From: a virus | Direction: 5' to 3' (one strand) | IMG/VR virus record: IMGVR_UViG_3300030382_002581 | Location: 1-24,695 of that record | DNA length: 24,695 nucleotides | In this document: piece by piece, positions 8,867 to 23,198 of the stretch | How the letters are laid out: each line of letters starts with the position of its first letter | How positions within the stretch are numbered: position 1 is the first letter of the stretch | Translations under genes and position numbers: made by a program | The notes under the pieces: model-generated | What the model was told of the DNA's origin: nothing | The model's input: only the letters and a program-made list of their open reading frames with translations | The model's database searches: none

Positions 8867-8871
8867 TATTG

Positions 8872-11439
8872 ATGGCAGTATTCAATGATAAGAAAGCACC
8901 AAAAACTGTTACAACTGTCTCTAAACAGCCAGTATTTAATAAAAGAAAAGAATCTCCTGGTATGTTTGGTAGACTAGGAGAGAAACTCATTGAAAGAGCT
9001 GATAGGGTAGTAACAGAAGACTTGCCTAAAGTCAGACCATTTTGAATTTGAGGTATAACTCCTAGACAAGCTGTTATAAGAGCTGTATGAGAGGGAGCAT
9101 GATTTATTTGACAAGATATACCAGGAGAAGTTATCTCAACAGTTTTTGGTGCTGTAGAGAAAAAAGCTCCAGAAGCTTTGAAAGAAGGATTCAAGAGTAC
9201 TTTGGCAAAAGCATGAGAGACTGCATTCTGAAAAACAATTTCTAAAGCATTGAAACCAGCTTTGCTAGCTGTACAGAAAGGAGCAGCAGCCTACTGAAAA
9301 CTCAAACAGAACCAACCAGAGTTAGCAAGAGACTTAGAGTCTATAGTAAACATAGGGTTATTTGCTGCTGAACTTCCTGGAATCAAACAATTTGGTAGAT
9401 GAGCAAAACAACTTATTGGGAAGTGAGCAACAAAAGTAGCAAGTAAAACAGACGACTTAGTTTCAGAAGCTAAGAAGTATAAGACGGCTGATGAGTTTGT
9501 GAAAGGAAATCATATTGTTGGCAAACACACATACACACCAAACTTTACTAAAAGACATATGAGTCCTAAAGAATATGAAAGATATATAAAAGAGACATCA
9601 AACCATTGGTTGATAAATTTAGACCCTGAAGCAGTTGATTTCTACCAACATATTTTAGCAGCGTGAGAGGGGAAACCTCAGCTAACACAAAAAGTTATTG
9701 ATTCGTTTAGTATAACAGTACCAACCAAACCAGTTAGACTTTATAGATGAATAAATAAGCACCAATATAAATGAGGTGGGAATATGTTTGAGTCATGGAC
9801 ATACGATAAAAAGAAAGCTGAAAAGTATGGTGGATGAGGTGTTATTTCTGAGACAATAAATCCATCTGACATAGTGATTGACACCACATATGCGAGTAAA
9901 GACCCCACATGGAGTGAAAAACTTAGACGGATATGAAAGGAAACATGAATACAATGATGATATACTGATAAAGAGGTAATTGTTTTCTCCGAGAAATTTA
10001 GAGAAACAAACACCCAACTCCGTAAGATACGGGAACAAGCAAACAAGTGATTACCAAAGAAGACTACAAATTTAATAGAAGAAGCCAAGAAGTATAAGAC
10101 AGCTGATGAGTTTGTGGAGAGTAGGGGTAAACCAATATATCATTGATGAAAATGAGATATACAAGAATTTATGATACCAAAAGAATGAAAAGAAAAAGCA
10201 GTATTTTTTACGTCTAAAAAGAATGTGGCTTGAAGTTATATAGATACAGCCAAAAGTCCTTGAAAGTTAAAAGTAGAATTTTTGGAAGATTTGTATTTTG
10301 ATAAAAAGATTACCAAAGAGGAGTTCATAAAAAAAAGAGAAGCAATTAAATGACAAATGTGAGATGAAAAATGAAGAATTACAGAAGCATTTTTAAATAA
10401 TAATGCAAAAACAAAAAAAATAACAGGTGTAGAAAGATATAATGCAAGCACACAAGAAAAGATAATAGATGAAGCGAGGAGAGAGTGATATGATGTAGTA
10501 GTAATAAAAAATACAATAGATGATGCATTTGAATATTGAGAATGAATACCATCTGATATAACAATTGTTTTCAATTCTGAGAAAATCAAAACAGAATCCC
10601 AACTCCGTAAGATACGAGAACAAGCTAACCCACAACCATTGTCTAAGAAATGAGAGAAGGTTATTGATATAGTTATGGCACCAGAGAATGCCAAAACAAA
10701 GAGAACAGCTTTTGGTGAGGGAAGATTAGGTATTGAAGATGAATGAGTTAAGACTGAATTATTTGGAAAGAGAAAATGAAAAATAGCTCCTAGTCAAAAA
10801 GAAATTGATGTGGCAAATACTATTCCAGAAGTAATCAAGAAACCGAGTAAAAACCCTGAAAAGTTAATGGGGCAAATAAAAGATGAAATAGGTGTTAGAT
10901 CAACAAAATTAGAGTGAAGGATGAAAGATGTTCCTGTGGGTGAGTTCCAGAATGACCTAAATAAAACAATATTGGAACTGGAAGGTTCTCTAATAAAAGA
11001 CCCCAATGTTGCTGCTACCTTAAGTATAAATGAAAAAACTGCAATCAAACAACTAATCATTGATCTCAGAGCAGCAGAGAATGCTGATGAAGTATGGAAA
11101 GCAAGGCAGACTTTTGACAATGCGGTTAAACAAAAGATAAAGGAAGGTATAAATTTGACAGACATACAGGAGACAAGAAGAGACAATTGGCTCAAACACA
11201 GGCGTGAATTGAATGAGGTTATGGATAAAGCGGTAGATTTAGCAGGAGACGCAAGTGTATCTAGTGAGTTTAGAATATTAAGTCATCTGTATGAAGCAAG
11301 AAACAATATGATAATGAGAGCTCCTGAGTTTGCTAAAGCTAAATCAGGCATATTTAGTTTGAAGAACCTTACAACAGCATGATTAACTGCTGGTGGTTCA
11401 ATAGCATGAGCGGCTGTTTTAGATCAATTATTAGACTAA
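8872..11439 (+). CDS. Ejection-type polyprotein with two ART-like domains
   Basis: 855 residues with dozens of UGA glycines. The N-terminal 200 residues are helical and basic. Domain 1 (about 270-395) looks like an ADP-ribosyltransferase: KPVRLYRG with R292, FESWT with S308/T310 (the S-x-T motif), and DKEVIVF with E368, the classic R-S-E order. Domain 2 (about 420-580) starts KPIYHGGKGD (H424), then AVFFTSKKNVAGSY and ends DITIVFNSEKIK, which resembles the ART domains of phage polyvalent proteins. Each domain is bracketed by EAKKYKTADEFV (199-210, 404-415) and QLRKIREQAN. The C-terminal 270 residues are helical and end in a hydrophobic glycine/alanine stretch (LTTAGLTAGGSIAGAAVLDQL), a possible membrane segment. 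Inference: it is packaged or ejected and modifies host targets. The stop overlaps the next start (TAATG). Catalytic activity is untested. Confidence 0.65.
9466..10116 (+). repeat. Direct repeat upstream of each ART-like domain
   Basis: Copies at 9466-9501 and 10081-10116 (36 bases each) differ at only two positions and both encode EAKKYKTADEFV in the same frame. They sit 615 bases apart. The two intervening protein domains are unlike each other, so the flanks are far more conserved than what they enclose. Confidence 0.85.
10015..10629 (+). repeat. Direct repeat downstream of each ART-like domain
   Basis: Copies at 10015-10044 and 10600-10629 (30 bases each) differ at two positions and both encode QLRKIREQAN, 585 bases apart. 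Together with the upstream repeats they delimit two cassettes of similar length inside one reading frame. Confidence 0.85.
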
Positions 11440-20978: not shown

Positions 20979-21110
20979 ATGTGGAAGAAAATATCAGAAG
21001 ATGAAAAAACTATTCTTTGATTGTTTGCAGCTATAATATTTATGTTGTGATTGATGGCGCTAATAGGATTTATTTCCTGAGCAATGAGTAATGGTATCGG
21101 GACTTTCTAG
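20979..21110 (+). CDS. Small single-span membrane protein
   Basis: 43 residues: polar start (MWKKISEDEKTI) and one hydrophobic helix (LGLFAAIIFMLGLMALIGFISGAM) with three UGA glycines, ending SNGIGTF at TAG 21108-21110. Without UGA as sense nothing would be called here. Topology suggests N-in with a membrane anchor. Function unknown; it lies among small probable early genes. Confidence 0.55.
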
Positions 21111-21146
21111 GACAGAGAAAAAGGGATAAAAGTTTTTGAAATAGCC

Positions 21147-21174
21147 TTGCAATTAGAAAAGTAATCATTATAGT
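21147..21174 (+). promoter_or_regulatory. Candidate sigma70-type promoter
   Basis: TTGCAA (21147-21152) and TATAGT (21169-21174) are separated by 16 bases, close to the -35/-10 consensus. Predicted transcription would begin near 21181, just before the structured RNA element. No gene in this 237-base gap uses it directly. Confidence 0.45.
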
Positions 21175-21180
21175 CCTAAG

Positions 21181-21308
21181 TAATTGTGTTCTTTAAGCTA
21201 TAAAGTTCCTTCCCAGCCACGTCCGTAATGACGGTATAAACTACTACAACGATACTCAAGAAGAGGTGGTTGCTTTTATCCAATGGCTGGGTGGGACGAC
21301 CACCTTTT
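21181..21308 (+). ncRNA. Candidate structured RNA with pseudoknot
   Basis: This lies in the largest non-coding gap of the window (21111-21347). Stem A: CCCAGCCA (21212-21219) pairs perfectly with TGGCTGGG (21284-21291). Stem B: CCGT (21223-21226) with ACGG (21231-21234). Stem C: 21261-21272 pairs over 12 positions with 21297-21308 (two G-U pairs), ending in TTTT. Stem C's 5' strand lies inside stem A and its 3' strand outside, so A and C form an H-type pseudoknot. An alternative pairing CGTCC (21220-21224) with GGACG (21294-21298) would compete. It could be a free small RNA of about 125 bases ended by stem C, or a leader controlling the gene at 21348. It matches no RNA family I know. Confidence 0.6.
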
Positions 21309-21347
21309 CACGTGTCCAAAAAAAGATTTATTCTTAATTATTATTTC

Positions 21348-21521
21348 ATGAATGAATATGAAATCACTTGTAGAGTTGTCACGGGTTATGGGAAGTTTGA
21401 AGCTGTATACAATGTAAATGCCCCAAATCTATTAGATGCCATTTATAAAGTATACGAAGATACACAACTTGAGTGAATGGATAAGTTTGGAGTGATTAAG
21501 GCAACGGCTATATGTAAATAA
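21348..21521 (+). CDS. Small protein downstream of structured RNA
   Basis: 57 residues, ATG 21348 to TAA 21519-21521, one UGA glycine (QLEGMDKFG). The frame is open further upstream, but that part overlaps the RNA stems and the AT-rich leader just before 21348 marks the likely start. Sequence: EYEITCRVVTGYGKFEAVYNVNAPNLLDAIYKVYED, a beta-beta-alpha style small fold. It may be controlled by the RNA element. No family recognised. Confidence 0.6.
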
Positions 21522-21541: not shown

Positions 21542-22357
21542 ATGCACAGAGGTTACATCAAACTACGAAGACAATCACAAGATAGTAAGCTATACTTTGC
21601 TGATCCATTTACTCGTTGGCAAGCTTGGCAGGATTTGTTGTTAAATACTAACCATAAAGATTGAGTAATTATAGTTAGAGGTAATATTATAAATCTAAAA
21701 AGATGACAAAATTGATACTCAGAGACAACTTTAGCAGTGAGACGGAAGTGGTCAAGATGAAAGGTAAGAAGGTTCTTAAAATACCTAGAAACGGTACAAC
21801 AGATAGTACAACACAAAAGCAAGGTCAAAAGCATCATAACGATCAATAATTACGATATGTATCAATGAAATGGTACAACTGACAGTACAACAGACGGACA
21901 TCAGACGGTACAACAGACGGACACTAATAAGAATGTTAAGAAGGATAAGAATGTAAAGAATAAAGATGTACCTCCAAAAAATCCTTCTTCTACTAAACAA
22001 ATTCTTTCTGAAAAAAAAGGTAAGGATGCGGTGAAAATTGAAGACATCCTAGGATATGATATATTCATAGATAAATACGGAAAGGAAATGCTAGAGGAAT
22101 TTATTGAGTATCGAACAGCTCCCACAGCAAGTTGAAAGCAAGTACGGCAAGAACAAACAACATTTGATATCTGAAGAAGGCTAGTTACTTGGTACAGAAG
22201 GGGTAAATCATACAAAAAGAAATATGAACTAGAAAAAACTTATGAGAACTTTGTAGACCTACTCAAGAAAGATAAGTTCCCAGAAGCAAAGGAGATGGCA
22301 GGTAAAGACTACGGAAAGCGATATACCAAATATCTTTTGAATGATTTTACTTGATAA
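21542..22357 (+). CDS. Replication initiation protein (DnaD/phage O-like)
   Basis: 271 residues, ATG 21542 to TAA 22355-22357. The N-terminal 115 residues have the winged-helix pattern of phage replication organisers: RGYIKLRRQSQDSKLYF, RWQAWQDLLLNTNHKDG, VRGNIINLKRGQNGYS, TTLAVRRKWSRGKVRRFLKYLE and KSIITINNYDMYQ. A low-complexity TDSTTDGHQTVQQTDTNKN linker and a lysine-rich stretch follow, then a helical C-terminal domain (DIFIDKYGKEMLEEFIEYRT, FDIGRRLVTWYRRGK) expected to contact helicase. Several UGA glycines fall in conserved turns (NHKDG, RGQNG, WSRG). The helicase gene is 7 bases downstream. Expected role: binds the phage origin and loads the helicase. Similar low-complexity linkers in related genes sometimes hold the origin; no clear iterons were seen here. 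Confidence 0.82.
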
Positions 22358-22364
22358 TGATACC

Positions 22365-23198
22365 ATGATAGACATTTCCTGAATAGAAGATATTGATTAC
22401 TGTGTTATGCAACCATTCACACGATGACTGGAGCATATAGACAAGTATCTAGGTAAGCCTGCTTATAATGATCTGATAGTCCTATGATGATTTGCCTGAA
22501 TATGAAAAACTGAAATGGCCTACTTCCTTGCTAGGAAGAACTCAGCACTTGGGAACAAGACAATGTTTCTATCACTTGAGCTACCCAAGAAAGACATGAT
22601 AATGAGGACGGTATGGAAGAGACACGGTTTCAATAAATACAAATCACAGACTACGGAGATAAGCCCTGAACTAGAAAAGAAGATGATGGACATGACTTTG
22701 GATATGATGGCTGATGATAATATAGAAATTATATCCCCTGATGGTGCTTGGTGAATTGACGAGATTGAGAGACGCATTGAGGAAGGCAACGATATGAACT
22801 TCAAGATATTCATTATTGATAATCTTTGAAAAATATCTTGAGATGCAAATGAGAATACAAGATTTGAAGAAATATCATCAAGACTCCAAGATATAAAAAA
22901 CAAGCACAACATCTGTATAATACTCCTACACCATCTCAAAAAGCCTACAGACAAGAAAGAACAGTATAGACCATGATGAATACAAGGATTCAGAGGAAGC
23001 CAGAAGGTAATAGACAACGCTACACAGGTAATAGAGATTTGGAGAAACAAAGATCCTGAAATGTGAGTAGAGATAAATTGCACAACATTACTTCTCCAAT
23101 ACAAAGATACTTGGTTTGGTAATAGTTGAAGGGCAGAGTTCCGATTTGATAAATGAGAATATGTGCAGGAAAATCCATTTTATGATAATCCATTCTAA
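22365..23198 (+). CDS. DnaB-type replicative helicase (RecA-fold core)
   Basis: 277 residues, a helicase core without the usual N-terminal DnaB domain or a primase domain. Walker A is GGFAGIGKTE (41-50), whose glycines 41, 42, 45 and 47 are all UGA codons (22485, 22488, 22497, 22503). Then come FLSLELPKKDM (the 'sLEM' region), Walker B FKIFIIDNLG, ICIILLHHLKKP and GFRGSQKVIDNATQVIEIWRN, matching DnaB/gp4 motifs in order. There are 14 UGA glycines. ATG 22365 is used because the ATG at 22357 runs into TAG at once. The stop overlaps the next start. Expected role: unwinding at the phage fork after loading by the upstream initiator. Confidence 0.9.

Follow-up and report, generated by a model that had tools for sequence, protein, structure and literature searches.

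Introduction

In phage P4, expression of the replication genes is shut off when transcription terminates prematurely, the CI RNA pairing with leader segments both upstream and downstream (PMC4825925). The repC attenuator of plasmid pT181 sets an intrinsic terminator against an upstream antiterminator before a replication initiator gene (PMC4878617). The locus described here, a structured RNA just 5′ of a small ORF that is followed by genes for a DnaD-like initiator and then a DnaB helicase, resembles both. It shares with P4 the position in the leader of a phage replication operon and the long complementary segments, and the premature-termination control that has been shown in P4 is proposed here. 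It differs in that the complement sits within a hairpin terminator, in its loop. This leader has two complementary segments; an arrangement of three was seen, by eye, only in the relatives L310 and L312 (L numbers are our handles for sequences). Rfam and DNA searches found no sequence relation to P4, and a processed CI-like RNA would be a candidate here by analogy. As in pT181, a terminator would be opposed by an upstream antiterminator before an initiator gene, and the hairpin loops are able to kiss. However, the pT181 antiterminator takes the 5′ arm of its terminator, whereas the upstream strand here takes the loop and upper stem (3′ strand); pT181 is also a plasmid rather than a phage, and antisense RNA is part of its type of control. 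By analogy, the RNA may work like either system, and it is not a demonstrated member of either class.

Two other classes share fewer features. Pseudoknot riboswitches that overlap a terminator have the same competition or overlap of pseudoknot and terminator, but here there are no conserved ligand-binding nucleotides, the sequence is unconserved and Rfam gives no match. Type III antitoxin RNA (ToxI-like) likewise has a pseudoknot flanked by a promoter-like sequence and a small ORF. This assignment was rejected, as 21110-21347 holds no family of tandem repeats and no toxin domain adjoins it: in place of an adjacent endoribonuclease toxin gene lies a 57-aa ORF without a significant match in Pfam or PHROGs. 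We propose that the RNA is probably a transcription attenuator, in which antiterminator and terminator compete in the leader of a phage replication operon, a function we infer from its architecture and position.

A recoded phage and its replication operon

The window is the whole stretch of DNA analysed (24,695 nucleotides, bases 1-24695 of a 31,627-base virus record), and coordinates refer to it unless stated otherwise. Its standard-code ORFs are short, while code 25 (TGA=Gly) yields long ORFs rich in TGA codons. The proteins encoded include a Terminase_6N protein, a podovirus-like head-tail adaptor (portal), a major head protein, a DnaD-like helicase loader and a DnaB helicase. The virus is a podovirus-like phage on code 25. 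The code belongs to Gracilibacteria and Absconditabacteria, for which clearly recoded phages and prophages have been described (PMC10746230). Because the phage uses it, the host is likely to be found among code-25 bacteria of the Gracilibacteria/Absconditabacteria type.

Under code 25 a 43-aa ORF stops at 21110 and the next ATG lies at about 21348, leaving 21111-21347 non-coding, in agreement with the 237 bases given in the preliminary description. The leader thus placed in the replication operon, a feature of P4-type leaders, has the helicase loader and helicase genes directly downstream:

21348-21521, + strand, 57-aa ORF (code 25), first after the leader
21542-22357, + strand, DnaD-like helicase loader/replication initiator (code 25; phrog_2514, E 3e-24)
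22341-23198, + strand, DnaB-like replicative helicase (code 25; PF03796, E 1e-20)

Two interlocking helices compete for the same bases

The leader had been described as carrying an 8-bp stem, a 4-bp hairpin and a 12-bp stem interlocked as a pseudoknot, and all three stems are there as claimed. The features, identified with RNAfold and a scan for interlocked pairs of helices, are as follows:

21147-21174, + strand, promoter-like pair TTGCAA (21147-21152), 16 nt, TATAGT (21169-21174); 9/12 match
21168-21203, + strand, upstream hairpin UUAUAGU...AGCUAUAA (RNAfold)
21205-21219, + strand, P1a, upstream strand GUUCC-UU-CCCAGCCA, candidate antiterminator strand (RNAfold, interlocked-pair scan)
21212-21219 and 21284-21291, + strand, P1, 8 bp, CCCAGCCA with UGGCUGGG
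21220-21234, + strand, small hairpin, CCGU/ACGG or CGUC/GACG (RNAfold)
21251-21272, + strand, P3a, 5′ arm of the terminator-like hairpin (GAUAC 21251-21255, core 21260-21272)
21261-21272 and 21297-21308, + strand, P3, 12 bp, AAGAGGUGGUUG with CGACCACCUUUU
21274-21282, + strand, inner 5′ hairpin strand UUUUAUCCA, partner 21288-21296 (RNAfold)
21284-21297, + strand, P1b, UGGCUGGG-U-GGGAC, in the hairpin loop and upper stem, partner P1a
21297-21316, + strand, P3b, 3′ arm CGACCACCUUUU with GUGUC extension; weak U run

The 4-bp hairpin is CCGU-AAUG-ACGG at 21223-21234. P1 is extended by GUUCC (21205-21209) with GGGAC (21293-21297), and P3 outwards by GAUAC (21251-21255) with GUGUC (21312-21316). 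P3 also extends inwards (UUUUAUCCA, 21274-21282, with UGGGUGGGA, 21288-21296), so that its upper part and P1 compete for the same bases. Whether RNAfold returns the P1 fold or the P3 one depends on the ends chosen for the sequence. When constrained, the nested P1 state reaches -34.2 kcal and the hairpin state -38.4 kcal, a gap of about 4 kcal, which supports the earlier suggestion of a possible switch based on alternative pairing.

Taken purely as a nested fold, the leader departs only moderately from chance (z -2.3 to -2.6). The interlocked pair is far more so: in the scan, which scores the stacking energies of ungapped helices only, P1 plus P3 (21212-21309) sums to -42.5 kcal, the best interlocked pair on either strand of the 31.6-kb genome. 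This energy was matched in none of 120 whole-genome dinucleotide shuffles (best -40.8) and in none of 4000 local shuffles.

The promoter-like pair and the U-poor tail

The -35/-10 pair and the T-residue ending of the preliminary description are present as sequence, and neither stands out. The leader region holds 4 promoter-like sites against 3.0 (sd 1.8) in shuffles, which is not above chance, and no terminator-like site was called in this leader because its tail, UUUUCACG, is too U-poor, with a U run of four residues (UUUU). With its short T run and chance-level promoter, this genome offers no support for a stand-alone RNA of 125 bases with its end at 21308. A search for an antisense RNA to the leader found a minus-strand promoter-like site at 21382-21355 (9/12), again not above chance. 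The relatives L147 and L153 carry TTGACA-16-TAATAT at the equivalent place relative to their RNA. The U-tailed intrinsic terminator before the initiator, a pT181-type feature, is not called in this genome and is present in L157, L309-L312, L315 and L317.

Architecture recurs in related phages without sequence conservation

Sequence searches gave little. The leader region has no match in Rfam 15 over the gathering threshold or at relaxed E, so that the family look-up proposed earlier named no family, and relatives' leaders likewise gave nothing above threshold. GGGUGGGAC in the leader resembles the T-box motif; with no Rfam match, a T-box was dropped. DNA similarity searches against phages and plasmids returned no meaningful match, helicase or initiator as a single protein query found no relatives, and prophages in host genomes yielded one distant match only, in a Hyphomicrobiales MAG. 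Capsid, portal and terminase queries retrieved many relatives, many of them on code 25, and none has a leader similar to this one in sequence. The preliminary description would have abandoned the RNA if its stems were not kept in related phages. At the sequence level they are not kept; the architecture is and, in alignable cousins, so is the covariation of P1.

An interlocked-helix scan of the relatives' intergenic regions found strong cases. Their shared design, sited as it is here, is an intrinsic terminator that has, in its loop or upper stem, the complement of a segment further upstream. In L157 (the record of L153) a 22-bp hairpin with loop AAGUCAGACC precedes the terminator GCACCUCACUC-(GGUCUGACUUAA)-GAGUGAAGGUGC-UUUUU, whose loop GGUCUGACUU is the exact complement of the upstream hairpin's loop, 124 nt before the initiator start. 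L159 has AAAGCCCUAU-(..GCAAGGAUUGU..)-AUAGGGCUUU-U with ACAAUCCUUGC upstream, just 5′ of its initiator. In L156 the design also lies upstream of initiator and DnaB and, as in this genome, small ORFs separate element and initiator. L158 is borderline (7-bp P1, p 0.06).

The prediction drawn from these first phages, that the element precedes the initiator-helicase operon, was tested on a later-fetched set of nine further code-25 phages located by DnaB, together with the standard-code cousin L318. The element lies directly 5′ of the initiator in L309, L310, L311, L312, L313, L317 and L318; in L314 and L315 it precedes small ORFs belonging to that operon, and L316 has a weaker, borderline candidate. 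Counting only interlocked pairs of -31 kcal or lower that carry a U-tract, in a strict window of up to 300 nt before the initiator, 9/14 phages are positive against 11/449 other gene starts, some of which are the same elements counted from a neighbouring ORF. The Fisher value of 1.2e-10 overstates independence, the phages being related, and the L314 initiator start is uncertain. This genome is outside the nine positives because its U run is short. A link to all DnaD-type initiators was rejected, since 0/8 annotated phages of other, unrelated groups with such initiators show a comparable element.

The balance between the two states varies. In most relatives the terminator fold is favoured over P1 alone by 8-20 kcal, and the idea that the P1 and terminator states are always near-equal was dropped: it holds here, in L157 RNA1 and in L159, and not in the others.

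L310 and L312 show, by eye, a three-segment arrangement in which a central segment UGUGUUGU has complements on both sides. Both also carry GGTCGTGGGTTCGAATCCCACCCCTCCCA (L310 2700-2730, L312 2853-2880), which resembles a tRNA/tmRNA 3′ end (Rfam tmRNA, sub-threshold), beside a tyrosine-recombinase-like ORF. This site is probably attP, so that both cousins are probably temperate. Because the both-sided complements occur together with an integrase and an attP-like tRNA/tmRNA end, control of lysogeny by the element is conceivable in these two phages.

P1 covaries in alignable cousins

Four leaders (L309, L310, L312 and L320) could be aligned through a shared inner stem, for which a pattern scan had found one further cousin only, L320. 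Their P1 versions are AGGGCUAC/GUAGCCCU, GACAUCAC/GUGAUGUC (two phages) and a AGCAUGAC-like form (L312). P1 is 100% paired, with 8/8 pairs in 4/4 leaders and double compensatory changes at 6/8. The number of cells paired, the double-change pairs and the covariation score all lie above 500/500 shuffles, and sliding the 3′ strand makes the signal collapse. These values come from only three independent P1 sequences, and from cousins rather than from a direct test of this genome's leader. The alignment shows that long-range P1 pairing is under selection in the cousins.

A model for attenuation and its alternatives

The strands are arranged in the order P1a, P3a, P1b, P3b, so that P1 could form during synthesis before the 3′ arm of the hairpin exists. 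P1a would then capture the loop of the terminator-like hairpin, together with its upper stem in this genome, leaving the upper half of the hairpin incomplete, and transcription would proceed into the initiator and helicase genes. With P1a occupied or in another fold, P3 would form as a complete hairpin (about 22 bp here) and transcription would stop or pause before the replication genes. Given the 8-20 kcal advantage of the terminator fold over P1 alone in most relatives, the effect of P1 there would have to be kinetic, or P1 and the terminator would coexist as a pseudoknot. Promoter, termination and folding order are predictions, and the short U run makes termination the least certain of the steps in this genome. 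The RNA had been proposed as a small RNA, an attenuator or a protein-binding RNA; the attenuator is best supported, by the relatives' U-tailed terminators with upstream-pairing loops near the initiator.

If correct, the model describes a device that is widespread among the phages of one little-studied group of recoded bacteria. Attenuation of replication genes is already known for phage P4 and some plasmids; in the geometry proposed here an upstream strand captures the terminator loop. Only the pairing is conserved, and therefore sequence searches and Rfam miss the element; further switches of this kind should be findable by architecture and gene position. More speculatively, and with a small chance of being right, the code-25 phages and their standard-code cousin may share a fast-diversifying system of RNA immunity or copy control, in which the terminator loop pairs with an upstream or trans-acting RNA and the loops serve as specificity tags like plasmid incompatibility determinants.

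Control by a trans-acting RNA, as in P4 immunity, is an unlikely explanation for this leader. A small RNA cut or copied from the leader would pair with the exposed complement of new leaders and force termination, giving immunity or copy control with the fast-changing loops as specificity tags. The P4 precedent, the complete divergence of loops whose pairing is maintained, and the UGUGUUGU segment of L310 and L312, with its adjoining integrase and attP-like end, are all in keeping with this. However, no separate small RNA is evident, no integrase was seen in this genome, and the antisense promoter is not above chance.

It is quite unlikely that P1 and P3 instead form together as a static pseudoknot, the stable end or body of an RNA that might, for example, protect a small RNA or leader from nucleases. 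Loops of 41, 11 and about 5 nt in this genome would allow both helices together, and the promoter and U-tailed end in L153 resemble those of a small-RNA gene. Yet upper P3 and P1 have bases in common here, the L153 linkers of 0-2 nt could hardly span 10-12 bp, making both full stems together improbable on sequence grounds, and placement before the initiator suggests control in cis.

Coincidence, in the form of strong but non-functional hairpins in a promoter/terminator region, we consider very unlikely. Comparable pairs (z <= -4) do occur in 7/566 strand tests (about 1-2%) of random phage intergenic regions, taken from unrelated contigs returned by a loose DNA pattern for P1 plus hairpin, and the tail and promoter here are weak, but the pair is the best in its genome, exceeds every shuffle and is sited where relatives carry the element. 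Least probable of all is an operator whose shape would be recognised by the initiator, the helicase or some other phage protein, which would thereby repress translation or transcription of its own gene, for although RNA operators are an established phage device and the placement before the initiator would suit one, members show no conserved nucleotides of the kind a sequence-specific protein would require, and the start codon and its surroundings lie outside the stems in this genome.

Other features of the phage and its relatives

Further elements of related design lie elsewhere in the relatives. L147 (1221-1350) has, between its terminase and portal genes, an insertion reaching the portal ATG that comprises a TTGACA-16-TAATAT promoter, a kissing-type element and a U6 terminator. 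A second element in L153 (17151-17285, equal to L157 552-685) combines a strong promoter, interlocked stems at most 30 nt further on and a U7 terminator, and has the look of a small-RNA gene. In L156 (11601-11644) a compact interlocked pair with a U-tail lies just 5′ of an ORF that, by eye, resembles a NUMOD4/HNH homing endonuclease.

In the present genome, the N-terminal half of the initiator resembles the SPP1 gene 38 product (33.8%), and three imperfect 23-nt direct repeats (ACAACAGACGG-like) within its gene, at 21796-21920, are possibly iterons of a replication origin. A tRNA at 598-668 is called by Rfam (33.6 bits) and not by ARAGORN, with anticodon UCC (Gly) by eye. A large protein encoded at 8869-11439 has the ADP-ribosyltransferase domain of polyvalent proteins (PF18760, E 1e-9). 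A gene resembling those for DNA cytosine methyltransferases is split between two ORFs at record bases 24439-25584 (window end and L126), with an HNH-like ORF following at record base 25587; both were recognised by eye.
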